DNA of 40,550 bases from Bacteroidota bacterium (GTDB lineage: Bacteria > Bacteroidota > Ignavibacteria > UBA10030). The notes under the pieces were generated by a model. The model was not told the origin of the DNA. It made no database searches and was given only the letters and a program-made list of their open reading frames with translations. The stretch lies in contig JAFGLB010000181.1 of the NCBI GenBank assembly GCA_016928255.1, forward strand, positions 1 through 40,550, read 5' to 3'. The translations under genes were made by a program, and so were the position numbers. Numbering within the stretch: the first letter of the stretch is position 1; every line of letters starts with the position of its first letter. Shown piece by piece: positions 7,401 through 26,246 of this stretch.

Positions 7401-7575
7401 GAGAATAAAAAAAATCAAGCCGAATGAACGCATGGTGCTTGCAACAGGTTATCTCGATCCGGATATGAAAACGGAATTCCTGGATGCAGGAATACAGCAT
7501 TTTCTTTTAAAGCCCTACGATCCCCAAAAAGTAATAAAAGTGATCAGGCAAATTCTGGATGAGAAGACGGATTAA
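4435..7575 (+). CDS. Hybrid histidine kinase: REC, four PAS, HisKA/HATPase, REC
   Basis: A 1046-residue cytosolic signalling protein with no membrane helix. In order: receiver domain at about 18-140 with phospho-acceptor Asp74; PAS at about 154-285, 288-415, 422-540 and 540-660; HisKA with His684 in [11 protein letters not shown]; HATPase at about 785-905 with the N box ([14 protein letters not shown]) and glycine boxes (DTGEGM, GSGLGL); a second receiver at about 922-1045 with Asp976. The HDFNN box belongs to the kinase group that often carries PAS domains and a C-terminal receiver. With receivers at both ends it can accept a phosphoryl group from another kinase and pass one on. No DNA-binding domain is present, so its output partner is unknown. 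The next gene is a kinase/regulator pair 131 bases downstream. Confidence 0.93.
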
Positions 7576-7706: not shown

Positions 7707-8504
7707 ATGTCATCGCTATTATTAGTAAATCAGGCGTCTTTTATTGGCACTGTAGTATTCAAAATAATTATAACTGTTCTGGCTGTGGTTATAATCATAA
7801 TTCTGTTTTACAGAAGGAGACGGTACAATAGATCGTTAAAAGAAAGAAATCTATTCACGCGCCAGTTAATCGACTCCATGGAAGCGGAAAGGAAACGGAT
7901 CGCCGCAGAATTGCATGACAGTATAGGCCAGGATTTACTCATTATAAAAAACAGGGCGCTGCTGGCATTAAACGGCCTGAAAGACAAAAAGGTAGTGAAA
8001 GAACAGCTGAATGAGATTTCTATCACGGCATCACAGGCCATCAGAGAGGCAAGAGAAATCACAAATAATCTTCGCCCGTATCAGATTGACAGGCTTGGAT
8101 TAAAAAAATCAATTGAATCAATTATTGAAAGAGCTGCCAGGACGACAACCATTTCTTTCACATCCGATATTGATCCTATTGATAATCTTATTCCCAAAGA
8201 AATGGAGATTCATGTTTACAGGATAATTCAGGAATGTGTTAATAATATCATTAAGCATGCAGATGCAAACGCCGGAAAAGTAACAGTGAAACGATGGTTT
8301 AACCGTTTAAATATAGATATTGAAGATGACGGCACAGGGTTTGATGTTCTATCTCAAAAAACAAAAAACGACCGGGGGATTGGCATACAGGGTATAATGG
8401 AACGCATTAATTTTTTAGGCGGAACGATCAGGATTGAATCAAATCCCGGCAGGGGAACAAGAGTACTAATAACAATTAAAACATACGACAGGATAGATGA
8501 CTAA
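7707..8504 (+). CDS. NarX/LiaS-type sensor histidine kinase with one membrane helix and no sensor domain
   Basis: A 265-residue kinase. Residues about 14-34 form a membrane helix followed by a basic stretch (RRRR). A HisKA_3 dimerisation domain follows, with phospho-acceptor His70 in AAELHDSIGQD, then a HATPase with the N box (RIIQECVNNIIKHA near 170-185), a D-box (DDGTGF) and the GIQGIMERINFLGG motif. Autophosphorylated His70 should transfer to Asp58 of the regulator encoded next, whose gene overlaps by 8 bases. Only about 13 residues precede the helix, so there is no periplasmic sensor. The chain resembles the part of Reg_prop/Y_Y_Y kinases from the membrane helix onward. This suggests that it takes its signal from another membrane protein. 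Confidence 0.92.
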   Translation: MSSLLLVNQASFIGTVVFKIIITVLAVVIIIILFYRRRRYNRSLKERNLFTRQLIDSMEAERKRIAAELHDSIGQDLLIIKNRALLALNGLKDKKVVKEQLNEISITASQAIREAREITNNLRPYQIDRLGLKKSIESIIERAARTTTISFTSDIDPIDNLIPKEMEIHVYRIIQECVNNIIKHADANAGKVTVKRWFNRLNIDIEDDGTGFDVLSQKTKNDRGIGIQGIMERINFLGGTIRIESNPGRGTRVLITIKTYDRIDD

Positions 8505-9153
8505 ACCAAAAATAAAAGTTGTTATTGCGGATGATCATCCGATATTTCGAAAAGGATTAATGCTGGCCTTTGGATCTGAGTATTCAATAGAAGTTGTTGG
8601 CGAAGCTGCAGACGGATTGCAGGCGCTGTATCTTGCCGAAAAGCAAAAACCGGACGTAATAGTCCTTGATATTGAAATGCCGGGATTGAATGGACTGCAG
8701 GTCGCCGGAGAAATATTAAGAAGACAGCTTCCATCCGGTATTATATTTTTAACTATGTACAAAGAAGAGGATATGTTTAATGAGGCTATGAATATGGGTG
8801 TCAGAGGGTATGTATTAAAGGAAAGTGCAGTCAGTGATATTACGGATGCCATCAAAACAGTTGCCTCAGGTCAGAATTATATCAGCCCGTCCATTTCTGA
8901 ATATCTTGCGAAAAGAAACGATTATGCGATCTCACTATTAAAGAAAAAGCCGCAATTGGAGAATCTTACGCAGATGGAAAGAAAGGTGTTAAGGTTAATA
9001 GCTGGAAATAGGACGAGTAAAGAAATAGGCGACGAATTACATATCAGCCACAGAACAGTTGAAAATCATAGAGCTAATATCTGCAATAAACTTGAAATTC
9101 ATGGCAGTCATTCCCTGCTTAAATTCGCGATAGAGTTTAAAGCCGTATTGTAG
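8497..9153 (+). CDS. NarL/LuxR-family response regulator
   Basis: A 218-residue DNA-binding regulator of typical length. The receiver domain covers residues 1-125 with an acidic pocket (ADDH near 10-13), phospho-acceptor Asp58 in VIVLDIEMPG, and Thr and Lys at the usual later positions (FLTMYKEED, YVLKES). The LuxR-type helix-turn-helix lies at about residues 150-213 (LTQMERKVLRLIAG then SKEIGDELHISHRTVENH). The ATG overlaps the end of the kinase gene by 8 bases, so the pair is translationally coupled and almost certainly works as a two-component system. The target genes are not evident from the sequence. Confidence 0.95.
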   Translation: MTKPKIKVVIADDHPIFRKGLMLAFGSEYSIEVVGEAADGLQALYLAEKQKPDVIVLDIEMPGLNGLQVAGEILRRQLPSGIIFLTMYKEEDMFNEAMNMGVRGYVLKESAVSDITDAIKTVASGQNYISPSISEYLAKRNDYAISLLKKKPQLENLTQMERKVLRLIAGNRTSKEIGDELHISHRTVENHRANICNKLEIHGSHSLLKFAIEFKAVL

Positions 9154-9631: not shown

Positions 9632-11890
9632 GTGAAAAAAATGAAGCGTAAAGCCAGAACATCAGCCGACCTTCTAAAAGAGATATCTCGATTGCGTAAA
9701 AGCATTAAAGAAAAGAAGTCTACGGCAGCAAAAAACAAAAAAGTAATTATGCCGTCTTTTTCGGAATTACAGCACATTTTCCTGAACAGTTTAAACGACG
9801 GGATATTTATTTTTGAATGTCCGGCAAAAGAAGGAGCAGCATTCAGATTTTATGAAGCGAATGCAGTTGTTTGCAAACTGCTGGGTTATTCAAAAGAAGA
9901 ATTGTTCGATAAAAATATATTTGAAATATTTGCCCCTGAGACTATCCTTCATGTCGAAAAGATGCTGCATATGCTTATGCTGCAAAAGCATTGTGTATGG
10001 GAAGGAATTCATCAAGCAAAAAACGGGCGCAGAATTCCGGTTGAAGTAAACAGCCACATTTTCAAATCAAGCGGAAAACAAGCCGTATTGCTGGCAGTGA
10101 AAGATATAACATTACGAAAAAGAGCTGAAGAGGAGCATAGAAAAGCGGAAGAAGCAATGAGGAGCAGTGAATCCAGATTCAGAACTCTGGCTGAAGCATC
10201 ATTTGAAGGGATCGCTGTAACAGAAAACGATGTTATTATAGATTTGAATGATCAACTTGCAAAAATGTGCGGGTATAACAGGAATGAGCTCATCGGGAAA
10301 CCTTTCATTAATATTGTGGCTCCAGAATTGCAGAATAAAATTAAACAGGCAATAAAAATAGAAAAAAAAGATATTATTGAAATTCAGGGGATGCGCAGGG
10401 ATAGTACTATATTCTCTGCGGAAATTCGCACCAGATCAAATATAATAAACGACAAAGAACTGCAGATATTTACGGTTCGTGATATAACAGAGCGGAAAAA
10501 GGCCGAGGAAGATTTGATAAACGAAAAAGCTTTTTTAGATGCTTTGATGGATAATATTCCCGACAGTATCTATTTTAAAGATCGGCATTGCCGGATTATG
10601 CGTGTTAATCGGAAAGAAATGAGAGATCTTAATATCAGCGATATGAACCTGATCGTAGGAAAAACAGATGAAGAACTTTTTGGCGAAGAATTCGGGAAAG
10701 AGACAACATTGAGCGAACAGCATCTTATGGAATCAGGAGAGCCGGTTATTGGTCTGGTTGAAATTAGAAAAATGAAGAATGAACAATTAAACTGGACATC
10801 AACTACTAAAGTACCGTTGCGCAATAGTAATAACGATATAGTAGGATTGGTCGGGATTACGCGTGAAATCAATGAAATAATGAAGGCACAGGAAGAACTT
10901 AAGCATGAACGTACTCTTCTCCGTACGTTAATAGACAACCTTCCTGATTATATATATATAAAAGATACGGAAGGCAGGTTTGTAATAGGCAATAAAGCAG
11001 TCGTAAACAGCTTCGGATTTTCATCTGAAAAGAGTCTTATAGGAAAAACGGATTTTGATTTATTCCCCGAAGATATAGCAAAGAAATTCAGGGAACATGA
11101 GCAAAGCATAATTGTAACTGGAAAAGGAATATTCGATCATGAAGGAACGACCATTGATATCAGTAAAAAAGAAAAGGAGCGCTGGATATCTACAACTAAA
11201 GTGCCTATATGGGATACACATGGGAGAGTGATAGGAACCGTTGGGATTGGCCGCGATCTAACAGAGCGCAAGCGTATGGAAGAAGAATTGCGTGAAAATG
11301 CAGACAAGTTCAGGTTCATTTTCGAAAACGCTTACGACGGAATAAGTATATTTGAAGAAACGTATGATCCAAAAACGAGGCGGCTTGTTAATTGCAATAA
11401 GAGTTATGCTGAAATGTCGGGAAGAACCCGGGAGGAATTGCTGGAAATCGGCAATACAATCAATATAGCGAAAGCACTCACAGAAAATAATAGTGGTTCA
11501 GACAGTGATAATGTTGTTTTTAGAGGATCGTTCAGCTGGATAAGGCCGGATAAAAAGGAAAATGTCATTGAATACACTGCCGTGCCTATAAAGGTAAAAG
11601 GAAAGACAATAACAATAGGGATCGACCGCGATATTACCGAACGTAAACGGATAGAAGAAGAGCGGGAACGGCTTATTAAAGATCTGCAGGGAGCTCTTGC
11701 GGATGTTAAAACGCTAAGCGGCCTTGTTCCTATCTGTTCAAATTGCAAAAAGATACGCAATGATAAAGGATTCTGGATGCAGGTAGAATCTTATATACAG
11801 GAGCACTCGCAAGCACAGTTCAGCCATGGAATTTGCCCTGATTGTATGAAAAAATTATATCCGAATATTATGCCCGAGGAAAGCGATTAA
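9632..11890 (+). CDS. Five-PAS protein ending in the Cys4-His tail; no kinase domain
   Basis: A 752-residue cytosolic sensor without signal peptide or membrane helix. A short basic coiled coil (about 8-35) is followed by PAS domains at about 45-165, 178-287, 293-415, 422-547 and 553-675; several end in the PAC-like DITERK motif. A helix (EERERLIKDLQGALADVK) leads into the C-terminal tail, residues about 696-746, with Cys702, Cys705, His732, Cys735 and Cys738. There is no HisKA, HATPase, receiver, GGDEF or EAL domain, so the tail is the only candidate output. The GTG at 9632 has AAAAGGA 13 bases upstream; the ATG at 9641 is an alternative start. It lies 55 bases before four membrane proteins with the same tail. 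Confidence 0.85.
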   Translation: MKKMKRKARTSADLLKEISRLRKSIKEKKSTAAKNKKVIMPSFSELQHIFLNSLNDGIFIFECPAKEGAAFRFYEANAVVCKLLGYSKEELFDKNIFEIFAPETILHVEKMLHMLMLQKHCVWEGIHQAKNGRRIPVEVNSHIFKSSGKQAVLLAVKDITLRKRAEEEHRKAEEAMRSSESRFRTLAEASFEGIAVTENDVIIDLNDQLAKMCGYNRNELIGKPFINIVAPELQNKIKQAIKIEKKDIIEIQGMRRDSTIFSAEIRTRSNIINDKELQIFTVRDITERKKAEEDLINEKAFLDALMDNIPDSIYFKDRHCRIMRVNRKEMRDLNISDMNLIVGKTDEELFGEEFGKETTLSEQHLMESGEPVIGLVEIRKMKNEQLNWTSTTKVPLRNSNNDIVGLVGITREINEIMKAQEELKHERTLLRTLIDNLPDYIYIKDTEGRFVIGNKAVVNSFGFSSEKSLIGKTDFDLFPEDIAKKFREHEQSIIVTGKGIFDHEGTTIDISKKEKERWISTTKVPIWDTHGRVIGTVGIGRDLTERKRMEEELRENADKFRFIFENAYDGISIFEETYDPKTRRLVNCNKSYAEMSGRTREELLEIGNTINIAKALTENNSGSDSDNVVFRGSFSWIRPDKKENVIEYTAVPIKVKGKTITIGIDRDITERKRIEEERERLIKDLQGALADVKTLSGLVPICSNCKKIRNDKGFWMQVESYIQEHSQAQFSHGICPDCMKKLYPNIMPEESD

Positions 11891-11945: not shown

Positions 11946-14900
11946 ATGAAAAAAATACTTATACAAAAATATATTTCAAATATCTTTAAATGTTTATTGC
12001 CGATAGGAATACTGATATGTGTATTGATCAATCCTGTCTATCCGCAGGAAAAGAATGTAAAGTTCAAGCATTTAAGTATCAACGACGGCTTGTCGCAAAA
12101 CGTGGTTTATTGTATAATGCAGGATAAATACGGAATGATATGGATAGGAACTGATGATGGTTTGAACCGTTATAACGGATATTCTTTCCAGATATTTAAA
12201 AATGTTCCGCGAAACAGCGAATCAATAAGCAACGGAAGCATCAGGGCGATATTTGAGGACAGCAGGGGAAAAATGTGGATTGGCACCAGGAGAGGTATGA
12301 ATCTGTTCGATAGGAAAAGCAATAAATTCACAAGGCTGCCCAAATGGTCGGATTTTATAGTAGTCTCTATTGCAGAAGATAAAAAAAATAATATATGGAT
12401 TGGTACTAATGTCGGACTATATAAATACGATTTGATAAGTGACAGTGTTACTGTATTTAGTCCCGATAATACATCCAGAAATATTGTAAGCCGAATGATC
12501 AACGGACCATTGAATGAAGTATTTGTCGACAGCAGGAACTATTTGTGGATATGTTCAACGGATGGCCTTCATTTATATGATAGCGACAATAACTCCTTTA
12601 TCAATTATTACCATGATGAAAATATTTCTAAAAGTATTGCAAGCAATGATGTACGGACAATACTGGAGGATAAAGCGGGAAGAATATGGGTAGCGACGTC
12701 AGACGGCCTGGATTTATTTGAAAATGCGCATGAACACCCGCTTGATGGGAAATTTATTCATCATAAAAATGATATAAACGATACTCGAAGTATATCGAAA
12801 GGCACGGTTCTTTCTCTTTTAGAAGATGATAAAAACAATTTATGGATAGGTGTTGAGAACGGAGGTGTTAACGTGCTTAATCTTAATACCTATACAAATA
12901 ATAATTCTGAATTTGTCCATTATGAAAGCGATCTAAAGCGTAAAACGGCTCTTAATAATAACTCGATTTATTCGATTTATCAGGATAGACAGGGCATTAT
13001 ATGGATCGGAACCTGCGGCGGAGGCCTTAATATACTGAATCCTGGTTCGGATAATTTTATCCATATTAAGGGTGAGCTCGGCAGCGATAATTCATTAAGT
13101 AATAATCAGGTAAATGTTATGCTGGAGGAAGATAAATTTATCTGGATAGGCACGGAAGGCGGATTGAATCGATACGATAAAACAAACGGCACATTCAAGC
13201 ATTATGTTCATGATAATTTTAATAGAAATAGTATAGGTTCTAATGCAGTATGGGCGCTTTGTAAAGACAAAAGAGGAAATTTATGGGTAGGAACATGGGC
13301 AGGCGGTCTTAACAGGTATGATTACAAGACCGAAAAGTTTGAGCGTTATTATAAAAATCCCCAAGATACGACTAGTATCGGCAGTAATAATATATTTTCC
13401 ATATGTGAAGACAGTAAAGGAAATCTCTGGATAGGTACTATGGGCGGAGGATTAAATAAATTTATCAGCAGAAATAAAACATTTAAAAGGTATAACGTAA
13501 ATAATTCGCCGATAAATACGAACTATGTGCCTTCAATTATTGAAACAAAAAACGGGGATTTATGGCTCGCGAATGAAACATCGTTTATATATTTTAGTCC
13601 TGACAGGGAAGAATTTAAAACATATTTACATTCCGAAACGGACAGTACGAGCCTGAGCAGCAATAAAGCGATAGCAATTTATGAGGACAGTAAAGAGAAC
13701 ATCTGGATGGGTACAGATGCCGGACTTAACCTGTTTAATAAATCGACTAAAAAATTTAAGTGTTATCAAATAGAAGACGGATTGCCTGATAACTCTATTA
13801 ATAGTATACTTGAAGATAACAATGGAAATCTCTGGTTGGCTACAAATAAAGGCCTGTCAAAATTTATTAATGCTGTAAATCTGCCTGATAAACCTGAATT
13901 CACGAATTATGTAGACGCAGACGGTATGCAGGGCAATCAGTTCGGACCAAGGTCATGCTTAAATGGATCGGATGGAATGCTTTATTTTGGAGGCGCGAAC
14001 GGATATAATGTTTTTAATCCGGATCGTTTATCGGATAACACATTTATCCCGCCTGTTGTAATAACAGGATTTTATATATTCAACCAGCCGGAAAGTATCG
14101 GAGACCTGGGATTTAACATGGAGTCGGGAAGCAGCGAAAATCTGGTATTGTCCTACAGACAATCTGTTATTTCGTTTGATTTCGCCGCACTGAATTATAT
14201 ATCACCTTTGAGGAATCAGTATGCATACAAGATGGAAGGATTCGATAAAGAGTGGAATTATGTCGGGACTAAACATTCAGCAACATACACAAATCTAGAT
14301 CCTGGTGAATATGTTTTTCGAGTAAAGGGATCAAATAACGACGGTGTGTGGAATGAAAAAGGTATATCGGTACCTATTGTAATCACTCCTCCATTCTGGA
14401 AGACATGGTTATTCCGGATATTGGTTATAGCGATAGGCATTATTTCCATTGTAATGTTCTATAAATACCGCACATATGCAATAAGAAAGCGTAATAAGGA
14501 ACTGGAAAAGAATATTGAAGAACGTACGCGGGAATTGGCTGACAAGAAAAATCTGCTGCAGACAGTAATAGATATGGTGCCGGATCCGATATATGTGAAA
14601 GACAAGGAACACAAATATATTTTAAATAACCGTGTGCATATAGAATCATTAGGTTTAAAAACACAGGAAGACCTGATAGGGAAATCGGATGCGGACTTTT
14701 TTAAACCTGACCAGGTGAATGAAGCACGCGAGGATGAGCGTACGATTATGGAGACGGGAACGCCTGTAATCAATAAAGAAGAGAAGGGTGCTGATCCGTT
14801 GTCGGGAATGGAAAGCTGGGTGTTGACATCGAAGGTACAGTTTAAAAACGACCGAAAAGAATTATTAGGCATAGTTGGTATCAGCCGTCTTATAACAGAG

Positions 14901-15158
14901 CGCAAACGTGCAGAAGAGGAGCGTGAACGTCTGATATCTGAACTTCAGGAAGCACTGGCGGATATAAAAATGTTGAGCGGATTGGTGCCGATATGTGCAA
15001 ATTGCAAAAAAATCCGGGATGACCAGGGATACTGGACTCAAATTGAATCGTATATACAGGACAGATCAAATGCGAAGTTCAGCCATAGTATTTGTCCGGA
15101 TTGCGCAAAAAAAATATATCCACAATATAATCTTGATAATATTTCAAAAAAGGAATAA
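11946..15158 (+). CDS. Propeller sensor A: 14 Reg_prop repeats, Y_Y_Y, membrane helix, one PAS, Cys4-His tail
   Basis: A 1070-residue inner-membrane receptor with a large periplasmic part. A signal peptide covers about residues 1-34. Fourteen repeats of the form D..G.lWIGT..GLNry follow, enough for two seven-bladed propellers as in known hybrid two-component sensors. Next are a Y_Y_Y domain (about 745-815, ending in TNLDPGEYVFRVKGSNNDG), a membrane helix (about 820-840), a PAS domain (about 858-985), a signalling helix, and the tail with Cys1017, Cys1020, His1047, Cys1050 and Cys1053. The expected kinase, receiver and AraC domain are absent. A TTG at 11940 is an alternative start, closer to AAAGG at 11930-11933. 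Such sensors usually bind glycan fragments; the ligand here is unknown. Confidence 0.88.
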   Translation: MKKILIQKYISNIFKCLLPIGILICVLINPVYPQEKNVKFKHLSINDGLSQNVVYCIMQDKYGMIWIGTDDGLNRYNGYSFQIFKNVPRNSESISNGSIRAIFEDSRGKMWIGTRRGMNLFDRKSNKFTRLPKWSDFIVVSIAEDKKNNIWIGTNVGLYKYDLISDSVTVFSPDNTSRNIVSRMINGPLNEVFVDSRNYLWICSTDGLHLYDSDNNSFINYYHDENISKSIASNDVRTILEDKAGRIWVATSDGLDLFENAHEHPLDGKFIHHKNDINDTRSISKGTVLSLLEDDKNNLWIGVENGGVNVLNLNTYTNNNSEFVHYESDLKRKTALNNNSIYSIYQDRQGIIWIGTCGGGLNILNPGSDNFIHIKGELGSDNSLSNNQVNVMLEEDKFIWIGTEGGLNRYDKTNGTFKHYVHDNFNRNSIGSNAVWALCKDKRGNLWVGTWAGGLNRYDYKTEKFERYYKNPQDTTSIGSNNIFSICEDSKGNLWIGTMGGGLNKFISRNKTFKRYNVNNSPINTNYVPSIIETKNGDLWLANETSFIYFSPDREEFKTYLHSETDSTSLSSNKAIAIYEDSKENIWMGTDAGLNLFNKSTKKFKCYQIEDGLPDNSINSILEDNNGNLWLATNKGLSKFINAVNLPDKPEFTNYVDADGMQGNQFGPRSCLNGSDGMLYFGGANGYNVFNPDRLSDNTFIPPVVITGFYIFNQPESIGDLGFNMESGSSENLVLSYRQSVISFDFAALNYISPLRNQYAYKMEGFDKEWNYVGTKHSATYTNLDPGEYVFRVKGSNNDGVWNEKGISVPIVITPPFWKTWLFRILVIAIGIISIVMFYKYRTYAIRKRNKELEKNIEERTRELADKKNLLQTVIDMVPDPIYVKDKEHKYILNNRVHIESLGLKTQEDLIGKSDADFFKPDQVNEAREDERTIMETGTPVINKEEKGADPLSGMESWVLTSKVQFKNDRKELLGIVGISRLITERKRAEEERERLISELQEALADIKMLSGLVPICANCKKIRDDQGYWTQIESYIQDRSNAKFSHSICPDCAKKIYPQYNLDNISKKE

Positions 15159-15299
15159 AGATTTGTTGCTCCGAATAAAGAATCATTTTCTCAGAGAAAA
15201 TTGTTTATACAAAAATATATATGAAGTATTGAAAATATATTATTTGTGCCTTGGCAGATATACGAAGAATAATACTAATTGATAAGTTAGGTCTGCGAA
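15159..15299. other. Spacer between propeller genes A and B
   Basis: 141 AT-rich bases. A 7-bp hairpin ATTTTCT/AGAAAAT (15185-15201, loop CAG) follows the stop of gene A by 26 bases but has no T tract, so any termination would be weak. No clear promoter or ribosome site was found before the ATG of gene B at 15300. Confidence 0.4.
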
Positions 15300-18200
15300 A
15301 TGAAAAATAAATCTATTTATTATATTCTAATTTTATCTTTTCTAATCTTTAAAGCAGAAATGCATTCACAGGAAAAGATAAAATTTGAACATATAACAGA
15401 TAAAGACGGGTTACCTTCGAATGCAATAACAAGCATATGCCAGGATACAACAGGTTTTTTGTGGTTTGGTACTTATAGCGGACTGGTAAGATATGATGGA
15501 AACAATTTTAAAGTCTATCAAAGTGATCCCAAGAGTTCCGACAGTATTAGTCATAGTTTTGTTAGATGTTTATTGGTAGATAAAAATGGCACTCTCTGGG
15601 CAGGCACCTGGGGAGGCGGCCTGAATATGTATAACGATAAAAAAGATGCTTTTGTATCCTTTCAGCATGATTCTAAAGATCCAAATACTATAAGCAACAA
15701 TTTGATAAACGCAGTCAGTCAAGATCAAGACGGAAACATTTGGATAGCTACCTGGGGAGGTGGACTTAATAAAATTGAATATCAGGCGGTTGACAAGCTT
15801 GGTGAAACAGACGGGAATAATTTAAAGAATAAAATTAAGTTTATACATTTCCAGAATGATTCGACAAATCAAAACAGCCTGCCCGGTGATAAAGTTAATT
15901 CAATTTATGAAGACAAAAATGGTAAGCTATGGATTGCTACAAAGTTCGGTGCCAGTAAGTATGACACGCGTAAAAATGAATTTGTTAATTTTAGGCATTC
16001 TTCGAATGATTTTTACAGCTTAAGTAGTAATAATGTGACATCAATATGTGAGGATAAAGACGGAATTATATGGTTAGGAACATGGGATGAGGGACTTAAT
16101 AAACTTGATCAAATAAGTGGTAAAATATTCAGATACAGATCTAATAAAACGAAAGATTCAGGAATTAGCAGTGATAAAGTTATGAAATTATATAAGGATC
16201 GTTCTGATAATCTTTGGATAGGTACATGGGGCGGAGGACTGATGAAGCTTGTTATTTCTCCTGTGAATAAATCGAATAAAACAGCTGGGAAGAAAAAAAA
16301 TGATGAATTTATAACCTTCAGAAGTGATTCGTATGATCCGTACAGTATAAGCGGGATGTCTATTTATTCGATATTTGAAGATAAAACGAATGTTCTATGG
16401 ATTGGAACAAATAACAACGGTCTGAATAAAATTGATAAAAGACGGATGCAGTTTACTTATGCAAAAAGCGATCCTTTAAACCCGAGAAGTTTAATTGAAG
16501 AAAGAGTTATCTCAATTTGTGTGGATCGATCCGGTTTGATATGGATTGGCACAAGTACAAACGGAATAAATATATTTGATCCGAAAAAGAAGACCACAAT
16601 AAATTATTTACATAACGCTAAGGATCCTTTTAGTATCAGCGGTAATTATGTAAGAGCGATATACCAGGACAAACTTGGAACAATGTGGATGGGGACTTCA
16701 AGTGGTTTTAATAAATACGATCAGGTAAATAAACGATTTATTAGATACTATTTTAGCTTTCCGAATCCAAGTGATACTCATATAAATGCTATCTGTGAAG
16801 ATAGGCACGGATATTTATGGCTTGGAAGTTATGGCAATGGGCTCGTTAGATATGACCGCAAGAAAAAAGAATTCAAATACTATCGGAATAATCCCAATGA
16901 TACAATGAGTATCAGCGATAATATTTTATGGGCAATTTATGAAGATCGAAAAGGTGATCTTTGGATAGGAACTGATAATGGAGGGCTTAATAAATATGAC
17001 AGACAGAATGATAATTTCCATAGATATATGCATAATCCCAACGACAGTACATCTATAAGTTCAAATTTTGTTGAGACAATATTTGAAGACAGTGAAGGAA
17101 TACTATGGGTGGGGACAGGCAAAGGGATTAATAAAATAGCTGAAAATGATGATGGATCTTCGCAATACTCATTTATTGCATACACAACAGAGAACGGATT
17201 GTCTTCAAATTCAATTTCGGCAATTCTGGAAGATGATAAATACAATTTATGGATAAGCAGTATAGCCGGGATTTCAAAATTCAATAAAAATACCTTGAAA
17301 ATTAATAACTACAATGAAAGCAATGGATTACTGGGAAATGAATTTGCTCAGGGTTGTGCGTCGATGAACAAAAAGACAGGCATCATGTATTTTGGAGGAA
17401 CTAATGGATATAACTACTTTCATCCAGACAGCATAAAAGAGAGCATATTTGCTCCGCCGGTTGTTATTGTTGATTTGAAAATATTTAATAAGAGCATACC
17501 GGTTAATAAAGAGATCGATGGTAAGGTAATTCTCAGCAGTTCTATCATTACAACAAAAGAAATAGTACTCTCTTATAAAGAAAATGTTTTATCGTTTAGT
17601 TTTGCAGCTTTACAGTATAATTCACCAAAGAATAATAGTTACGCATATATGATGGAGGGTTTTGATAAAGATTGGAATTATCAAGGTAATAGAAATGAAG
17701 TAACTTACACAAATTTAAATCCCGGTAAATATATTTTCAAGGTCAAGGGATCGAATAATGATGGAGTATGGAATGAAACAGGTGTTTCTCTTCCCATATT
17801 TATTACACCGCCATTTTGGCAAACGTTTTGGTTTATAATTTTATTAGCAATTATTTTCTTAGGCTTGATTATTTGGATAATTAAATGGCGAAGTCAATTA
17901 AGAGAACTGGCAACACAAAAACGGATAGATGCCGTTCTGGCAAAGGAGAGAAATTTATTGAGGACATTAATAGACAACTTGCCGGATATGGTTTATGTAA
18001 AAGATACTAAAAGCCGCAAACTCATCAGCAACTTAGCCGACATAAAAAACATGCGTCTTCAATCAGAAGCTGATGTTATTGGAAAAGATGATTTTGAATT
18101 ATTCACGCGAGAACTGGCAGAAGGTTTTTTAAAAGATGATCAGGCCGTTATTCAAAGCGGCAATCCCGTTATAAATAGAGAAGAGTTTGTCTTTGACGAG

Positions 18201-18926
18201 AACAATCAAAAACGATGGCTTAGTACAACTAAGATACCTTTAAAAGATAACGAACAGATTATTGGATTGGTCGGCATTAGTCGCGACATCACAGAGCGCA
18301 AAATTGCAGAAGAGGCATTGAGACAAAAAACAGCGCTTCTGGAAGCGCAGCTTAACTCATCCATTGATGGAGTTTTAGTGGTTGACAGAGAGGGAAAGAA
18401 GATTCTCCAAAATCAGCGGACGGCGGAACTTTGGAAGATACCGCAAGAGATTGCGGATAATCCCGACGATCGACAACAGGTAGATCATGTGATGAATCTA
18501 ACAAAGAATCCTGAACAGTTTGTTATCCAAGTAAAATACCTTTACAGCCATCCGGATGAAACAAGCAGTGACGAAATCGAACTTAAGGATGGAACCATTC
18601 TTGACCGATATTCGGCTCCAGTTCTAGGAAGTGACGGACAATACTATGGAAGAATCTGGTCGTTCCGCGATATTACCAAACGTAAGCACGCTGAGGAAGA
18701 GCGAGAAAAATTAATATTAGAGTTACAGGATGCACTTGCCGATGTAAAATTACTGAGCGGATTGGTGCCTATATGCGCCAGTTGTAAAAAAATCCGGGAT
18801 GACCAGGGATACTGGACTCAAATTGAATCGTATATACAGGACAGGTCAAATGCGAAGTTCAGTCATAGTATTTGTCCGGAATGTGCTAAAAAACTTTATC
18901 CTAATTATAACATAAAGAAACAATGA
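15300..18926 (+). CDS. Propeller sensor B: 14 Reg_prop repeats, Y_Y_Y, membrane helix, two PAS, Cys4-His tail
   Basis: A 1208-residue membrane receptor. A signal peptide covers about residues 1-23, followed by 14 propeller repeats, a Y_Y_Y domain (about 770-838), a membrane helix (about 843-862), PAS domains at about 880-1000 and 1010-1125, a signalling helix (KLILELQDALADVKLLSGL) and the tail with Cys1159, Cys1162, His1189, Cys1192 and Cys1195. Its propeller is the most divergent of the four paralogues: the order and spacing of repeats differ from A, C and D. Yet its tail is almost identical to those of A and C at the DNA level, and its second PAS closely matches the third PAS of C. This suggests exchange of C-terminal modules. 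No enzymatic output domain is present. Confidence 0.88.
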   Translation: MKNKSIYYILILSFLIFKAEMHSQEKIKFEHITDKDGLPSNAITSICQDTTGFLWFGTYSGLVRYDGNNFKVYQSDPKSSDSISHSFVRCLLVDKNGTLWAGTWGGGLNMYNDKKDAFVSFQHDSKDPNTISNNLINAVSQDQDGNIWIATWGGGLNKIEYQAVDKLGETDGNNLKNKIKFIHFQNDSTNQNSLPGDKVNSIYEDKNGKLWIATKFGASKYDTRKNEFVNFRHSSNDFYSLSSNNVTSICEDKDGIIWLGTWDEGLNKLDQISGKIFRYRSNKTKDSGISSDKVMKLYKDRSDNLWIGTWGGGLMKLVISPVNKSNKTAGKKKNDEFITFRSDSYDPYSISGMSIYSIFEDKTNVLWIGTNNNGLNKIDKRRMQFTYAKSDPLNPRSLIEERVISICVDRSGLIWIGTSTNGINIFDPKKKTTINYLHNAKDPFSISGNYVRAIYQDKLGTMWMGTSSGFNKYDQVNKRFIRYYFSFPNPSDTHINAICEDRHGYLWLGSYGNGLVRYDRKKKEFKYYRNNPNDTMSISDNILWAIYEDRKGDLWIGTDNGGLNKYDRQNDNFHRYMHNPNDSTSISSNFVETIFEDSEGILWVGTGKGINKIAENDDGSSQYSFIAYTTENGLSSNSISAILEDDKYNLWISSIAGISKFNKNTLKINNYNESNGLLGNEFAQGCASMNKKTGIMYFGGTNGYNYFHPDSIKESIFAPPVVIVDLKIFNKSIPVNKEIDGKVILSSSIITTKEIVLSYKENVLSFSFAALQYNSPKNNSYAYMMEGFDKDWNYQGNRNEVTYTNLNPGKYIFKVKGSNNDGVWNETGVSLPIFITPPFWQTFWFIILLAIIFLGLIIWIIKWRSQLRELATQKRIDAVLAKERNLLRTLIDNLPDMVYVKDTKSRKLISNLADIKNMRLQSEADVIGKDDFELFTRELAEGFLKDDQAVIQSGNPVINREEFVFDENNQKRWLSTTKIPLKDNEQIIGLVGISRDITERKIAEEALRQKTALLEAQLNSSIDGVLVVDREGKKILQNQRTAELWKIPQEIADNPDDRQQVDHVMNLTKNPEQFVIQVKYLYSHPDETSSDEIELKDGTILDRYSAPVLGSDGQYYGRIWSFRDITKRKHAEEEREKLILELQDALADVKLLSGLVPICASCKKIRDDQGYWTQIESYIQDRSNAKFSHSICPECAKKLYPNYNIKKQ

Positions 18927-19043
18927 ATAATATGTATACAACATAAATTAAATGAAAACGCTGACTAGATATAGTTATGAACTAAAACTGTAATTTATTA
19001 GATTTTAGACACAAAATTAAGCAATGAGATGGTCAGATAATAC

Positions 19044-19210
19044 TGAAATAATTTCAATGTCTATCAGAGCGATCCAAAGAATACCAATAATATCAGTCAT
19101 AATTATATCAGATCATTCCTTGTCGATAGGATGTGCAATCTCTGGATAATCATATGGAGGAGTATTACAAGTAAACATGATACAGAAAACATCAATCCAA
19201 CATCTGACTT
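19044..19210 (+). pseudogene. Decayed fragment of a fifth propeller gene
   Basis: Within the 303-base gap between genes B and C (18927-19229), bases from 19047 translate as NNFNVYQSDPKNTNNISHNY and continue as IRSFLVDR. This matches residues of gene B around 15505-15595 (NNFKVYQSDP, then ISHSFVRCLLVDK). A TGA stop precedes the match at 19044. After 19131 a frameshift and divergence set in, although NLW and a later KHDTENINP-like stretch can still be aligned. DNA identity to gene B is evident by eye. It is a relic of a lost or partly deleted paralogue. The rest of the gap (18927-19043) holds nothing recognisable. Confidence 0.75.
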
Positions 19211-19229
19211 TAATACAAATTGACTTTCT

Positions 19230-22200
19230 ATGAAAAAAGTAATCTTTTTGGTCGTACTTAACATCCACTTTATTACACTTCAGACGAATTACGTTTTAGC
19301 ACAACCTAAAGATATACGGTTCAAACATTTGACCGTCAATGATGGACTTTCATACGGCGGGGTGATTACTATTACGCAGGATAAATACGGGTTTATCTGG
19401 ATCGGTACAGATGACGGTTTGAATAGATATGATGGCAACAGCTTCCAGATTTATAAAAATGACAGGCGAAATATAAATTCGATAAGAAGCGGCACGGTAT
19501 CGAAGATTTACGAGGATAGCAGGGGTGTCTTTTGGATAGGCACTGCAAATGGTGTGGATATTTATGACAGACAAAATGATAGGTTTATCAGGGATCCCAG
19601 ATTTTCAAATCAAAAAATTGCATCTATAGTGGAAGATGTAGATGGGAGCCTCTGGATAGTATCGACTTTCAATATCTACCATCTTGATGTTAAGAATGAC
19701 AGTGTTGAAATATATTCACAAAATGATATCACAGGAGGCAGAACCCGCACTGAAGAAACAAACAGAGAAATGATTATAAGCAGGAGGGGGGAGGTGTGGA
19801 TAGGTTCTTCTAGTGGCATACACATTTATGATAAAAAAAGGAAATTATTCATTCAGGTTCTTCATGACAATAATAAACCTAATAGTTTACTCAGTAATAA
19901 TGTCCGTTCATTGTTAGAGGATAATGCAGGAAGAATATGGATCGGCACCGATGCAGGTTTGGATGTAATTGATAATTTTGATAAAAATCCAGTTGATTAT
20001 ACTTTTTATCATTTTAAAAACAGCAATGATCCAAGAAGCATTACTGGAGGAACAGTTCGGACATTATTAGAGGATGATAAGCAGAATTTATGGATAGGAA
20101 CAACGAACAGTCTGGATCTTCTTGACCTGAAAACATTTAAGAAAGGAATTAACAGCTTTATACATTATAAGAACGATCCAGGCAAACGAACAAGCCTTAA
20201 TAATAATTCCATCTATTCTCTTTTCCAGGATAACCAGAAAAACATCTGGATCGGTACATACAGCAATGGTATAAATATTATAAGTTCAATCCCTGAGAAA
20301 TTCGATTTATTTATGAGTGAACCTGGCTTTAAAAATACCTTGAGCAACAATCAGGTTAATTGCTTCTTTGAAGACGGCGACATTTTATGGATAGGTACAG
20401 AGGGGGGATTGAATAGGTACAATAAAAAAGATGATACATTTAAGCACTATATTCACGATCCGTTAAACAGAAAAGCATTAAGTTCGAACAACATTTTGAG
20501 TATTTGTAAAGACCGATATGGAAGTCTCTGGATAGGAACATGGGGAGGGGGGTTAAATAGGTTTGATTATGGCACAGAGACGTTTGAGTATTATTACAAT
20601 GATCCTAATGACACCAATAGCATAAGCAGTAATGATATATTTTCAGTAATTGAAGATAAAGACGGTAATTTATGGATTGGTACACTAGGCGGCGGTCTTA
20701 ATATGTTTGATAGGACAAAAAAAAGATTTGTTAGACTAAACACTCAGAATTCTGGTATTTATTCTAACTTTGTATTAGAAATTAAAGAATCAAAAAACGG
20801 TGATCTATGGCTAACCAATTATACAGCAGCTGTTCGATTCGATAAAAAGAAAGGAAGTTATGAGTGCTTTGTGCATTCCGATAGTGACAGTGGCAGTATA
20901 TCCAGCAATAGAATTGTATGTATCTTTGAAGATAGTAATGGAAATATCTGGATAGGTACGAATGCAGGACTTAATCTATGGAATAAAACGACGGGGAAAT
21001 TTACTTGTTATCAGAAAGCAGATGGATTGTCAGACAATTATATCAACAGCATTCTCGAAGATAATGATGGAAATCTGTGGATGGGAACGAATAATGGCTT
21101 ATCAAAATTTTTAAATGCCGTAAATTTACCTGAGAAGCCGAAATTCAAGAATTACACTTACGAAGATGGATTACAAGGCGTCGTCTTTGCAAAGCGTTCA
21201 TACCTGAAAGGTAAAAATGGAATTATGTATTTTGGCGGCACAAACGGGTTCAATGCGTTTGATCCGGGAAAAATTATGGAAAACACATACATTCCTCCAA
21301 TTGTTATTACAGGCTTTGAAGTATTTAATAAACCGGTTAGCATCGGAGAAAGGGGATTAGGAAAAAACTGGTTTGCCGATGAGCCGCTGGTTCTTTCATA
21401 CAAACAATCTATGTTTTCGATTAGCTTTGCAGCATTGAATTACATTTCTTCAAAAAGAAATCAATATGCATATAAACTTGAGGGATTCGATCAAGATTGG
21501 AATTATGTCGGTACAAGAAATACTGCAACTTATACAAATTTAGATCCAGGCAAATATTTTTTTCGAGTTAAAGGATCCAATAACGATGGTGTTTGGAATG
21601 AAATTGGTGTTTCCCTACCAATAGTAATAAAGCCGCCTTTTTGGGAGACGTTATGGTTCAGATTGATACTGCTTGCTGTTTTAACAGTTGTTGTATACTG
21701 GATTTATAAGTGGCGTATGCAAACAAGAGAATTCGCGGAACAAAAGCGTATGGATGCAGTTTTAACAAAGGAGCACAATCTTCTTCGTACATTAATCGAT
21801 CTAATACCCGATTATATCTATCTCAAGGACACCGAAAGCCGCTTCATTCTCGCAAATAAAGCGCTCCTGCAAAGCTTTGGGAAAGAAAACATGGATGAAA
21901 TCTATGGGAAGACCGATTTCGACTTTCACCCTTTAGAAAATGCCCGCGTTTATTTTGCCGATGAGCAGGAAATTATCCGTTCGGGGCAGATGCTGCTTAG
22001 TAAGGAAGAGCCTGTGGTTGAAGCTACGGGCCAGCGGAAATGGAACATATCCACAAAAATACCTTTCAAAGATCTCCAGGGAAGGATCGTAGGCCTAGTA
22101 GGCATTGGCCGCGATATTACTGAACGTAAACTAACCGAAGAGGCGTTGCGCAAAAGCAAAGCTCAATTGAATAATGCTTTGAAGATTGCCAATCTGGGTT

Positions 22201-23198
22201 ATTGGGAATTCGACAATGCAACCCGTCTTTTCATATTTAATGATCAATTTTACAATCTTTTTCACACAACCGCCGAAAAGGAAGGGGGCTATTCGATGTC
22301 TCCTGCTCAATATATTCGGCGCTTTGTTAATTCTGATGATGTACATATCGTTGATGATATTATTCAACGAGGCGTTGAATCTACTGATCTAATAAAGACT
22401 GAAGCACAATTAGAACACCGCATTATATACGCTGATGGTGGTACTGGATATTTCTCAGTTCGCATTTCTATCGTTAGAGACGAGAACAGCCGCACAATCA
22501 AGGTGTACGGCGTTAATCAAGATATCACAGAGCGCAAACTGGCTGAAGAAGCGTTAAGCCAAAAAACGGCACTCCTTGAAGCCCAACTCAATTCTTCAAT
22601 CGATGGAGTTTTGGTGGTCGACAAACAGGGGAAGAAAATCCTACAGAATCAGCGGACTGTTGAACTTTGGAAGATCCCGCAAGAGATTGCGGATAACCCA
22701 GATGATCAGATGCAGGTAGCTCACGTTATGCACGCAACCAAGGATCCGGATCAATTCGTCAGCAAAGTTAAATACCTTTATAGCCATCCTGATGAAACCA
22801 GTCGGGATGAAATCGAACTAAATGATGGAACGGTTCTTGATCGATATTCAGCCCCAGTAATAGGCAGTGACGGACGATACCATGGGAGGATCTGGTCATT
22901 CCGCGACATCACTGAAGGTAAACGAGCTGAAAAGGAGCGTGAAAAATTAATAGGAGAACTTCAGGATGCACTTGCAGATGTAAAATTACTGAGCGGATTG
23001 GTGCCGATATGTGCAAATTGCAAAAAAATCCGTGATGACCAGGGATACTGGACCCAAATTGAATCGTATATACAGGACAGGTCGAATGCGAAGTTCAGTC
23101 ATAGTATTTGTCCGGAATGTGCTAAAAAGTTATACCCGAATTACAATACAGACAAAATGGTAAAAAAGAATAACGATCCTGGCGAGGAAAATAAATAA
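19230..23198 (+). CDS. Propeller sensor C: 14 Reg_prop repeats, Y_Y_Y, membrane helix, three PAS, Cys4-His tail
   Basis: The largest paralogue, 1322 residues. A signal peptide covers about residues 1-24; 14 propeller repeats follow in the same order as in A and D; then a Y_Y_Y domain (about 735-803), a membrane helix (about 807-826), PAS domains at about 845-970, 975-1105 and 1110-1225, a signalling helix, and the tail with Cys1261, Cys1264, His1291, Cys1294 and Cys1297. The middle PAS (LKIANLGYWEF...) is not present in the other paralogues. A short basic/acidic extension follows the tail. The ATG at 19230 begins a good signal peptide, but no strong ribosome site is visible. No kinase or DNA-binding domain is present. 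The next gene begins 32 bases later. Confidence 0.88.
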   Translation: MKKVIFLVVLNIHFITLQTNYVLAQPKDIRFKHLTVNDGLSYGGVITITQDKYGFIWIGTDDGLNRYDGNSFQIYKNDRRNINSIRSGTVSKIYEDSRGVFWIGTANGVDIYDRQNDRFIRDPRFSNQKIASIVEDVDGSLWIVSTFNIYHLDVKNDSVEIYSQNDITGGRTRTEETNREMIISRRGEVWIGSSSGIHIYDKKRKLFIQVLHDNNKPNSLLSNNVRSLLEDNAGRIWIGTDAGLDVIDNFDKNPVDYTFYHFKNSNDPRSITGGTVRTLLEDDKQNLWIGTTNSLDLLDLKTFKKGINSFIHYKNDPGKRTSLNNNSIYSLFQDNQKNIWIGTYSNGINIISSIPEKFDLFMSEPGFKNTLSNNQVNCFFEDGDILWIGTEGGLNRYNKKDDTFKHYIHDPLNRKALSSNNILSICKDRYGSLWIGTWGGGLNRFDYGTETFEYYYNDPNDTNSISSNDIFSVIEDKDGNLWIGTLGGGLNMFDRTKKRFVRLNTQNSGIYSNFVLEIKESKNGDLWLTNYTAAVRFDKKKGSYECFVHSDSDSGSISSNRIVCIFEDSNGNIWIGTNAGLNLWNKTTGKFTCYQKADGLSDNYINSILEDNDGNLWMGTNNGLSKFLNAVNLPEKPKFKNYTYEDGLQGVVFAKRSYLKGKNGIMYFGGTNGFNAFDPGKIMENTYIPPIVITGFEVFNKPVSIGERGLGKNWFADEPLVLSYKQSMFSISFAALNYISSKRNQYAYKLEGFDQDWNYVGTRNTATYTNLDPGKYFFRVKGSNNDGVWNEIGVSLPIVIKPPFWETLWFRLILLAVLTVVVYWIYKWRMQTREFAEQKRMDAVLTKEHNLLRTLIDLIPDYIYLKDTESRFILANKALLQSFGKENMDEIYGKTDFDFHPLENARVYFADEQEIIRSGQMLLSKEEPVVEATGQRKWNISTKIPFKDLQGRIVGLVGIGRDITERKLTEEALRKSKAQLNNALKIANLGYWEFDNATRLFIFNDQFYNLFHTTAEKEGGYSMSPAQYIRRFVNSDDVHIVDDIIQRGVESTDLIKTEAQLEHRIIYADGGTGYFSVRISIVRDENSRTIKVYGVNQDITERKLAEEALSQKTALLEAQLNSSIDGVLVVDKQGKKILQNQRTVELWKIPQEIADNPDDQMQVAHVMHATKDPDQFVSKVKYLYSHPDETSRDEIELNDGTVLDRYSAPVIGSDGRYHGRIWSFRDITEGKRAEKEREKLIGELQDALADVKLLSGLVPICANCKKIRDDQGYWTQIESYIQDRSNAKFSHSICPECAKKLYPNYNTDKMVKKNNDPGEENK

Positions 23199-23230
23199 TT
23201 ACAATCAAAGAGTATTCAGTTTAATTAGAA

Positions 23231-26002
23231 GTGGAAAAAATAAGATCATCTATGATGAGCAGGATTAGTTTAATATTATCAGCATATATTTTGATTCCAA
23301 TATTTACGTACTGCGTTAATGCCCAGCCGAAGCACCTGCAATTCAGACAGATTACGACAGATCATGGACTCTCGAACAGCTGGGTACATACTGTTATGCA
23401 GGATAAATATGGTTTTATTTGGATAGGTACGGATGACGGTTTAAATCGTTATGACGGATATGATTTCCGTATATATAAATACAACATGAACGATGCATAT
23501 TCCATCAGCAACAGCAATGTCATAGCCATACTGGAGGACAGACAGGGAAATTTATGGTTTGGAACAAGGGAGGGGCTTAATCTTTATGACAGAGAAAACG
23601 AAAGGTTTATACGCCATCCAAAATTGTCGCAAGAAGAGATATTTTCAATCAAGGAAGATATGGACAGTAACCTTTGGATGGCCGGAACAAGATATTTGTT
23701 CCGCCTGGATTTGAAGAATGACAGCCTGTATACATATCATCAGGATATTATGCCGCAGGATGGGATTATTGTAAGCGGAGGAGGGAACAGGAAAATAATT
23801 ATCGACGGAAGTAATTCTGTTTGGATCGCCTCAAATTACGGTCTGTTTTTATATAATAGGACCAAGGATTCGTTGACAAGTTACTTCCATGACAGCAAGG
23901 ATACTTACAGCATCAGCAGTAACGATATATATTCGATTTACGAGGATAAGTCGGGAAGAATATGGATCGGTACATCCGCCGGATTGGATTTGTTTTTGAA
24001 TTCAAGTGTGTACCCTCAAAAAGGGACATTCGTACATTATAAAAATAATATAAACGATAAAAAAAGTATATCAAAAGGTGCGGTTCTTTCACTTTTAGAA
24101 GATAGTGACAGGAATTTATGGATAGGCATTGAGAACGGCGGCCTGGATATAATGAATCTTGATGGTTTTAAACCGGGTAACAGTAATTTCGTTCATTATA
24201 GAAACGAGCCGGGCAGATCGGGGAGTCTGAGTCATAATTCCATTTATTCTCTTTTTCAGGACAGGCAGGGCAGTATTTGGATCGGCACGTTTGGCAATGG
24301 TTTAAATATGGTGAATCCGGCGGGAGAAAAATTTATTCATATAAAAAGCGAAATAGGAGTAAAAAATTCCTTGAACAATAATCAGGTACATGCTTTTTAT
24401 GAAGAGAATGATTACCTGTGGATAGGAACCGATGGGGGTCTGAACCGTTATGATAAGAAGAATGGCACATATAATCATTATGTTCATGATCCTTTAGATA
24501 ATCGAAGCATCGGCTCGAATGCAGTATGGTGTATCTTTAAAGACAAAAGCGGAATGCTTTGGGTCGGGACATGGTTCGGAGGCCTGAATAGATTTGATCA
24601 TAGGACCGGGACATTCGAACATTTCTATTATAATCCTGAAGACACCAGCAGCATCGGCAGCAACAATATATTTTCCATTTTTGAAGATAGTGATCAAAAT
24701 CTCTGGATCGGAACTATGGGAGGCGGTTTGAATCTTTTAGACAGGAAAAATAAAGTATTTGTCAGATATAACACATTAAACTCGAACATATATTCTGATT
24801 ATATTCAGGATATAATCGAATCAGACGACGGGTATTTATGGATTGCGAACGTAGGCGCTTTTTGCTGTTTCGACAAACAAAATAAAACGTTTGAAACATT
24901 TATGCATTCAAAAAACGACAGTACCAGCCTGAGCAGCAATAGGATGAGATCAATATTGAAAGACAGCAAGGGTAATTTGTGGATGGGTACAAACAACGGA
25001 TTGAATCTTTTTAATAAATCTACAAGAAGATTCAAACACTACAGGACAAAAGACGGACTGGCGAATAATTCAATCAACAGCATTCAGGAAGATAAATACG
25101 GGAACCTCTGGATAGGAACGAACGGCGGATTATCGACGTTCGCTAATGCGGTAAATCTTCCGGAAAAACCCAGGTTCAGAAGTTTTACAAGTGAAGACGG
25201 ATTGCAGGGCAACGAATTCGGCAGGCGTTCGGCTTATAGAAATGCGAATGGGACGCTGTATTTTGGAGGCCCGAACGGGTTTAATATAATTGATCCGGAT
25301 AAAGTAACGGAAAACAAATTTATTCCTCCGGTTGTAATTTCGGGTTTTCAGATTTTCAATAAACCTGTGGCCATAGGCATCAGGGGATTGAAAAACAACG
25401 AGGAATGCAGCAATGACCTGATACTATCATACAAACAATCGGTATTCTCAATTGATTACTCTGCGCTTAATTATATCGCGCCGTTAAAAAACCAGTATGC
25501 ATATATAATGGAAGGATTTGACAGAGATTGGAATTATGCAGGAACCAAACACAGTGTAACTTATACCAATCTGGACCCAGGAAAATATATTTTTAGAGTC
25601 AAGGGATCTAACAACGACGGTGTATGGAATGAAGAAGGAACATTTTTGTCTATTGTGATTACTCCGCCTTTCTGGCGTACAAAATGGTTTTACGGTTTAA
25701 TATTTCTTTTTACAATAAGCGCTGCGCTGGGATTGTACAGGTGGCGCGTCTTGAGGCTGTTGAAACATGAAAAAGAGCTGAATATCCGCATACAGGAAGC
25801 ATTGGCAAAAAACAGAATACTCAGCGGGCTTCTGCCGATTTGTTCTAATTGTAAAAAAATCAGGAATGATAAAGGATATTGGGATCAATTGGAGAAATAT
25901 ATTCAGACACATTCTGAAGCCCAGTTTACGCATGGAATTTGTCCGGAGTGTGCAAAGAAACTTTATCCTGATTATGACTTGAACGAAGAGAAAAATTCCT
26001 GA
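23231..26002 (+). CDS. Propeller sensor D: 14 Reg_prop repeats, Y_Y_Y, membrane helix, Cys4-His tail, no PAS
   Basis: The minimal paralogue, 923 residues. A signal peptide ends near residue 32. Fourteen propeller repeats, a Y_Y_Y domain (about 742-812) and a membrane helix (about 817-838) are followed directly by a helix of about 30 residues (LNIRIQEALAKNRILSGLLP) and the tail with Cys871, Cys874, His901, Cys904 and Cys907. It shows that the tail can be joined to the receptor without any PAS domain. The tail DNA differs clearly from that of A-C and its HSEAQFTHGICPEC part is closer to that of the five-PAS protein. The GTG at 23231 is used here; ATGs at 23252 and 23255 also fit a signal peptide. 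A terminator follows at 26061. Confidence 0.87.
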   Translation: MEKIRSSMMSRISLILSAYILIPIFTYCVNAQPKHLQFRQITTDHGLSNSWVHTVMQDKYGFIWIGTDDGLNRYDGYDFRIYKYNMNDAYSISNSNVIAILEDRQGNLWFGTREGLNLYDRENERFIRHPKLSQEEIFSIKEDMDSNLWMAGTRYLFRLDLKNDSLYTYHQDIMPQDGIIVSGGGNRKIIIDGSNSVWIASNYGLFLYNRTKDSLTSYFHDSKDTYSISSNDIYSIYEDKSGRIWIGTSAGLDLFLNSSVYPQKGTFVHYKNNINDKKSISKGAVLSLLEDSDRNLWIGIENGGLDIMNLDGFKPGNSNFVHYRNEPGRSGSLSHNSIYSLFQDRQGSIWIGTFGNGLNMVNPAGEKFIHIKSEIGVKNSLNNNQVHAFYEENDYLWIGTDGGLNRYDKKNGTYNHYVHDPLDNRSIGSNAVWCIFKDKSGMLWVGTWFGGLNRFDHRTGTFEHFYYNPEDTSSIGSNNIFSIFEDSDQNLWIGTMGGGLNLLDRKNKVFVRYNTLNSNIYSDYIQDIIESDDGYLWIANVGAFCCFDKQNKTFETFMHSKNDSTSLSSNRMRSILKDSKGNLWMGTNNGLNLFNKSTRRFKHYRTKDGLANNSINSIQEDKYGNLWIGTNGGLSTFANAVNLPEKPRFRSFTSEDGLQGNEFGRRSAYRNANGTLYFGGPNGFNIIDPDKVTENKFIPPVVISGFQIFNKPVAIGIRGLKNNEECSNDLILSYKQSVFSIDYSALNYIAPLKNQYAYIMEGFDRDWNYAGTKHSVTYTNLDPGKYIFRVKGSNNDGVWNEEGTFLSIVITPPFWRTKWFYGLIFLFTISAALGLYRWRVLRLLKHEKELNIRIQEALAKNRILSGLLPICSNCKKIRNDKGYWDQLEKYIQTHSEAQFTHGICPECAKKLYPDYDLNEEKNS

Positions 26003-26175: not shown

Positions 26176-26246
26176 GTGTTGTCTCCCAGACAACACAAAA
26201 TAGCCTCCCTAACCCCTGGCGTCTGGTAGTGCGTCGGGGGTTTTTT
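26176..26246 (+). ncRNA. Candidate small RNA of about 70 nt, two hairpins and a C-rich linker
   Basis: A probable start near 26176 follows the promoter at 26142-26170. The transcript would open with a perfect 10-bp hairpin, TGTGTTGTCT/AGACAACACA (26175-26197, loop CCC), then a single-stranded linker with CCTCCCT (26204-26210), then the terminator hairpin at 26211-26242 and a T tract. The linker is complementary to purine-rich ribosome sites (AGGGAGG), a feature of several small regulatory RNAs. No open frame of useful length lies inside. I do not recognise it as a known RNA family. Confidence 0.6.
26211..26246 (+). terminator. Strong intrinsic terminator of the candidate small RNA
   Basis: AACCCCTGGCGT (26211-26222) pairs with GCGTCGGGGGTT (26231-26242) in a continuous 12-bp stem with three G-U pairs and an 8-base loop, followed by T to 26246. 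The reverse strand lacks a T tract after the stem, so it works only on the plus strand and cannot serve the rluE-like gene that converges from the other side. Confidence 0.75.

Follow-up and report, generated by a model that had tools for sequence, protein, structure and literature searches.

The four sensor genes A to D in the window, the whole stretch of 40,550 nucleotides that was analysed, end in a shared Cys4 tail, which is a widespread C-terminal output module that can replace the kinase on one type of sensor and that keeps helix register. We assign a probability of roughly 0.6 to the reading that A to D are periplasmic double-propeller sensors whose output would be this Cys4 module, switched via the register of a coiled coil and acting on a putative partner.

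All features of the array lie on the forward strand of a 3.16 Mb genome. A hybrid kinase with the Pfam architecture REC-PASx4-HisKA-HATPase_c-REC, thus with a receiver at both ends, is encoded at 4435..7575 upstream of P6 (7707..8504), a sensorless HisKA_3-HATPase_c kinase of 265 residues with a hydrophobic N-terminal helix. P6 overlaps by 8 bases with the gene for a REC-LuxR(GerE) response regulator (8497..9153). After a gap of 479 bases comes P5 (9632..11890), which encodes five PAS domains and then the Cys4 tail (11696..11866); this gene 5' of A is a fifth tail gene, overlooked in the original prediction. It is followed by A (11946..15158, tail at 14955..15131), B (15300..18926, tail at 18735..18911), C (19230..23198, tail at 22971..23147) and D (23231..26002, tail at 25802..25978), with intergenic gaps from P5 to D of 56, 142, 304 and 33 bases. 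In each of A to D a Reg_prop and Y_Y_Y sensor half leads to a membrane helix and, at the end, to the tail. One PAS domain lies in between in A, two in B and three in C, and D, without a PAS domain, has a coil in this position. A terminator-like hairpin of 12 pairs (7 of them G-C) with a T run follows D at 26211..26242 and is the strongest forward site of the region.

The domain content of A to D was examined with Pfam. Reg_prop and Y_Y_Y are found in all four proteins, together with one PAS domain in A, two in B, three in C (residues 857-967, about 1054-1096 and 1125-1234) and zero in D. Our own PAS HMM returns the same counts of 1, 2, 3 and 0 for A, B, C and D, so that the series of none to three PAS domains described in the original prediction is confirmed. 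The 14 Reg_prop repeats claimed there are what two propellers of seven blades each would be expected to have; the stretches that score separately number 12 in A, 13 in B, 10 in C and 12 in D. The signal peptides and the single membrane helix are a reading by eye. There is no Pfam match to HisKA or HATPase_c in any of the four, and C-terminal REC, AraC HTH and any other DNA-binding HTH are likewise absent from the Pfam results. A kinase concealed by a frameshift was considered and excluded, because stop codons occur in all three forward frames shortly 3' of each of A to D, the terminator-like site follows D and genes of this architecture are found in sister genomes too. The absence of a kinase is therefore borne out, with none in hidden frames downstream of any of the four genes. 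On the whole, what the original prediction had observed is right and its interpretation is half right. The layout reported for Bacteroidota HTCS is Reg_prop-Y_Y_Y-TM-kinase-REC-HTH (PMC3243724). A to D resemble these proteins in the periplasmic double propeller and Y_Y_Y, and one full-length HTCS (on contig C67) is encoded in the same genome; they differ in having no DHp, ATPase, receiver or AraC part and in carrying the Cys4 tail at the end.

The tail is a C-terminal Cys4 module of about 60 residues common to A to D and P5. The C-terminal consensus of A to D is L.G[LIV][LIV]PIC..CKKIR.D.GYW.Q.E.YI...S.A.F.H.ICP.CAKK.YP, and the end of P5 is alike. No Pfam or NCBIfam model scores above its cut-off over the tail on A to D, the best being zf-C4pol on D with an E-value of 0.098. 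In PHROGs, D and A match no family, and the two families matched by P5 are hit by its PAS part. An assignment of the tail to a Pfam, NCBIfam or PHROGs family was rejected, since none covers the tail of A to D. None of six tail peptide strings was found in a set of 5.39 million open-access papers. Two AlphaFold2 jobs, the second of them with the tail alone, gave best-of-five pLDDT values of 90.1 and 89.2, with the other models at 65-78. The predicted fold consists of a long helix, a small strand pair and a helix, followed by a CPxC that opens a last helix; the CPxC stands at the helix start in both models. Foldseek searches of the PDB with both models gave no fold match (best E-values of 2.3 and 3.4), and by sequence the best PDB hits, 7yjw with an E-value of 0.019 over 25 residues and another with 0.14, were judged to be chance. 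The tail is probably a zinc-stabilised fold.

The genome of the window has 12 tail matches: the five of the array, two contig-end fragments and one each on C186 (D-type), C81 (REC-tail, 212 residues), C155 and C43 (both PAS-tail) and C224 (HAMP-GAF-PAS-type), with the domains of these last five read by eye. The tail is present in 21 of 148 genomes of the phylum and in 49 of 61 genomes of relatives. When named genomes were scanned, 577 relatives came up, and the 80 loci kept from these span more than 10 phyla according to the record titles, including Desulfobacterota, Acidobacteria, Ignavibacteriae, Spirochaetes, Chloroflexi, Nitrospirae, Verrucomicrobia and Riflebacteria; cultivated carriers include Geothrix and Desulfopila species. 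On mobile elements, one partial match was found among 72,556 plasmid records and none among 50,697 phage records. From 79 of the 80 loci (L087 gave no frame), 80 tail proteins of at least 100 residues were extracted by pattern. Pfam assigns to them PAS_9 (25), REC (18), Reg_prop (6), Y_Y_Y (5) and HAMP (5), and also Cache, GAF, SBP, MASE3 and 7TM sensors. The 25 commonest of the 40 families found are input, receiver or linker domains only, with no kinase, cyclase, phosphatase, DNA-binding output or HTH among them, and the remaining families have at most two members each. Of 191 unique tail proteins, none matches a hybrid-kinase HMM or contains GGDEF, HD-GYP, PP2C, MCP or cyclase motifs, and a HisKA_3 HMM finds a single weak match (L316, 13.8 bits). 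No more than 60 residues follow the last Cys in 186 of the 191. The tail thus occupies the place of an output domain. It is not strictly terminal, as judged by eye, in L035, where a glyoxalase-like stretch follows, and in L358, where a GAF-like stretch does.

The two CxxC motifs are 29 residues apart in 184 of the 191 tails. The four Cys residues are constant in all tails, but the pattern used for collection demanded them. Across the 184 tails with a length of 39 residues, conservation reaches 99% at K, W and H and 97% at E and Y. The retention of so many polar residues suggests a working surface and not a metal site alone. Genes for kinases occur among the neighbours of tail genes in 10 of 73 near cases and 3 of 73 far cases (Fisher p 0.08), a weak enrichment; near neighbours were the 73 of 139 on the same strand with a gap of <300 bases, far ones were 73 drawn at random from 180, and 7 of 79 loci were missing from the comparison.

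The distance between the input domain and the tail steps by seven residues within each class of input in 98 of the 100 proteins measured; the other 91 of the 191 tail proteins have no measurable anchor or lie outside the classes. From the K/R/Q-P anchor of REC to the P of PIC, the distance is 32 (2 proteins), 39 (1), 46 (15), 53 (5) or 67 (1) residues, with 24/24 in register. From the AIER anchor of REC it is 32 (5) or 39 (2), with 7/7 in register, and L094 has a distance of 25 by eye. From Y_Y_Y it is 57 (11), 71 (2) or 78 (1), with 14/14 in register. From PAS it is 12 (2), 19 (2), 22 (1), 30 (1), 33 (46), 40 (2) or 47 (1), with 53/55 in register, the linkers of 22 and 30 being the two exceptions; one of the two scored as 19 (L075) measures 33 by eye. 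Two REC proteins with a 109-residue stretch (L174 and L299) and two with a domain between (L115 and L271) were left out of the classes. Twelve of the 14 distinct non-modal linker lengths are in register (binomial 5e-9 at a chance of 1 in 7), with anchor patterns that were fixed after an exploratory look at the data. As a control, the same script was applied to the distance from Y_Y_Y to the His of HisKA_3, which does not step by seven (57 six times, 58 once and 61 four times), and to that from Y_Y_Y to HisKA, where only a majority class (11/26) emerged. The coil before the tail follows an a..de.. hydrophobic pattern at positions -22, -19/-18, -15, -12(A)/-11, -8, -5 and -1. Discrete linker lengths and an a..de.. 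coil beside the effector are described for Rec-GGDEF and PAS-GGDEF enzymes such as DgcR and WspR, where they are tied to a register switch (PMC8041772), and for the LOV kinase YF1 the effect of linker length is described as having a period of seven (PMC6798134). The tail proteins share the steps of seven with the GGDEF enzymes and differ in the effector, which is a 60-residue Cys4 domain and no cyclase. Linker lengths quantised by seven fit what a helix-register signal predicts. The proposal of a mechanical input from the helices to the tail, of the kind that a kinase would receive, thereby gains real support from the sequences.

In the mechanism that we favour, binding of a ligand at the propeller/Y_Y_Y part would move the membrane helices, as may be reasoned from the HTCS family. 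The movement would pass along an unbroken coiled coil, with no relay in D and by way of one, two or three PAS domains in A, B and C. A shift of register would then occur at the LxxALxxVKxLSGLLPIC coil abutting the tail, as the linker lengths support, and the tail would bare or conceal its conserved surface (K, R, D, W, E, Y and H) and so act on a partner. The tail is in this view a general and exchangeable output module, carried by REC domains too. In this genus, P6 and the LuxR regulator might be among the candidates for a partner to the sensors or tails. In a wider and more tentative version, the tail would be a bacterial output domain, widespread yet undescribed, that reads coil register where kinases and diguanylate cyclases do. 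Propellers, PAS domains and REC domains would be interchangeable as its inputs, and in this genus it would work with the severed kinase half of the same sensor family; we lean against this full version while taking it seriously.

The outputs of Reg_prop/Y_Y_Y sensors in general were surveyed in the phylum, where Y_Y_Y is found in 104 of 148 genomes. The census comprised the best-scoring 80 of 672 matches in rank order, with the genome of the window, G078 and G140:C49 (near a contig end) excluded; one of the 80 proteins (L246) runs off its contig. By Pfam, their C-terminal parts contain HATPase_c (65), HisKA (33), HisKA_3 (27), Guanylate_cyc (4), SpoIIE (4) and MCPsignal (3), and further members have only a DHp-like piece (three) or the tail (one). 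HATPase_c is missing from 15 of the 80, and the counts of the non-kinase classes sum to 15. A kinase output is thus the rule and not a requirement for Reg_prop sensors, and HisKA is present in under half of them, which does not support the assumption that the helix normally leads to HisKA. Individual sensors of the phylum are joined to an MCP part (L211, L212 and L257), a guanylate/adenylate cyclase (L206, L226 and L249) or a SpoIIE-type phosphatase (L220, L227, L244 and L248). Three others (L192, L219 and L250) have Y_Y_Y and a HisKA-like DHp helix pair without an ATPase, with the conserved end [RK]DQ.MIDLTG[DE], and are possibly another split or kinase-dead form. Reg_prop proteins with GGDEF outputs occur in Xanthomonas and Lysobacter, the same sensor again with a non-kinase output, although their output domain differs from the Cys4 tail. 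The 10 Y_Y_Y matches in the genome of the window are five tail proteins (A to D and one on C186), four kinases (on C122, C90, C181 and C67) and one protein stopping after Y_Y_Y. This last one, the 819-residue Reg_prop-Y_Y_Y frame G000:C122:49563 (L160), ends before the membrane helix, with no continuation in another frame.

The original prediction took the PAS series as a sign of modular growth, which is contradicted by mosaic identities within the array and by differing PAS numbers in sister arrays. The sensor halves of A, C and D are mutually 53-54% identical, and that of B, the most divergent of the four, is 34-36% identical to each. The last PAS domains of B and C are nevertheless 83% identical (82.6% over 622 bases through the tail), although their sensors are only about 35% identical. 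The tail DNA of A is 88-89% identical to that of B and C, and the tails of D and P5 stand at about 71-74%. The first PAS domains of A, B and C are 38-46% identical to one another, compared with 39-48% to the fourth PAS of P5. Exchange of C-terminal blocks between paralogues would fit these identities better than stepwise PAS insertion. Sister arrays have PAS numbers of 2, 2 and 1 in G159, 1 in G168, and 0, 1 and a split gene with 2+2 in G078; single genes with 4 PAS domains occur in G170 and G171. The split gene of the G078 array (L159:10344-14593), of the Reg_prop-multi-PAS-tail type, consists of two overlapping frames of 1132 and 301 residues. Between B and C, the interval 18927-19230 holds a decayed remnant of a B-like sensor N-terminus (19030..19101, 76% over 72 bases), indicating duplication and loss within the array. 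The form without PAS is the common one (14 of 19 Y_Y_Y-tail proteins) and is found also in acidobacterium and Opitutae records (L066 and L070); among the loci examined, Reg_prop-tail proteins with PAS occur only in this genus and family. Since the form without PAS is usual and a sensorless kinase of the same family is encoded upstream, it is doubtful that the sensors have lost a kinase half.

That upstream kinase opens an alternative. P6 contains HisKA_3 and HATPase_c by Pfam, a hydrophobic N-terminus (a membrane helix by eye) and nothing else. Its orthologues in G159 and G168, of the same genus, start with MTT.FFV.QPPFWET, the motif that follows Y_Y_Y, and P6 therefore has the look of a kinase half that came away from a Reg_prop sensor. 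The best P6 matches beyond its own genome include frames of 1000-1100 residues, among them L260, in which Reg_prop, Y_Y_Y and PPFW were identified by pattern and by eye. A tree built from 19 kinase-domain rows, some with very long branches, pairs P6 with the L075 orthologue (100/100). L260, a Reg_prop kinase of full length (88/83), and a G078 kinase that has no sensor (96/94) join this pair, and the group adjoins Reg_prop kinases (87/86). The order P6-RR-(PAS-tail)-(Reg_prop-tail) is kept in three genomes of the genus, and regulator orthologues 79-80% identical lie beside P6 in two same-genus genomes. Finding kinase-free sensors next to a sensorless kinase suggests that the system is split, but the wider distribution of the tail is independent of this. 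A to D might accordingly sense in trans with P6 and the LuxR regulator, the kinase being detached and not lost and the tail serving as an accessory docking piece. We consider this unlikely, if the strongest of the rival accounts: other lineages also have Reg_prop-tail proteins (L052, L066, L070 and L092), with no such kinase noticed there, the P6-like pair of G078 is located away from its tail array, and the 479 bases between regulator and P5, the small tree with its long branches and a membrane helix read by eye all count on the same side.

The two CxxC motifs would also suit a nucleic-acid-binding zinc finger, in which case A to D would be one-component membrane transcription regulators. Y_Y_Y is reported in 7.7% of transmembrane transcription regulators (PMC10269533), and HalOD2, a haloarchaeal C-terminal output domain linked to REC and likewise bearing two CXXC motifs, has been proposed as a DNA or RNA binder (PMC5847659). 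The CXXC spacing of HalOD2 is given there as 20-25 residues, compared with 29 in the tail, and the domain is described from few halobacteria only, whereas the tail spans many bacterial phyla and is carried by PAS proteins and membrane sensors as well. The 191 tails have a mean net charge of -1.15, with only 18% positive, and DNA-binding families are absent from the 25 commonest domains of tail proteins given above, so we regard a nucleic-acid-binding role as improbable. It is still harder to see the tail proteins as decoys or decaying receptors, that is, as truncated sensors without output that pile up by duplication. The remnant between B and C, the Reg_prop protein on C122 ending after Y_Y_Y and the split gene of G078 are what such decay would leave, but the tail is strongly conserved across phyla, the linker register is kept and four-fifths of the relative genomes have the tail, which makes this account very improbable.

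The reading of the tail as a register-switched output module bears on sensing beyond this array, because an output domain determines what a bacterial sensor does, and the tail is carried by many receiver, PAS and membrane sensors in more than 10 phyla. Inside one phylum, a single sensor module is wired to kinases, cyclases, phosphatases and MCPs as well as to the tail. Thanks to the steps of seven in the linkers, a role of the tail as a register-switched effector can be tested directly, and a size of 60 residues makes the tail tractable.
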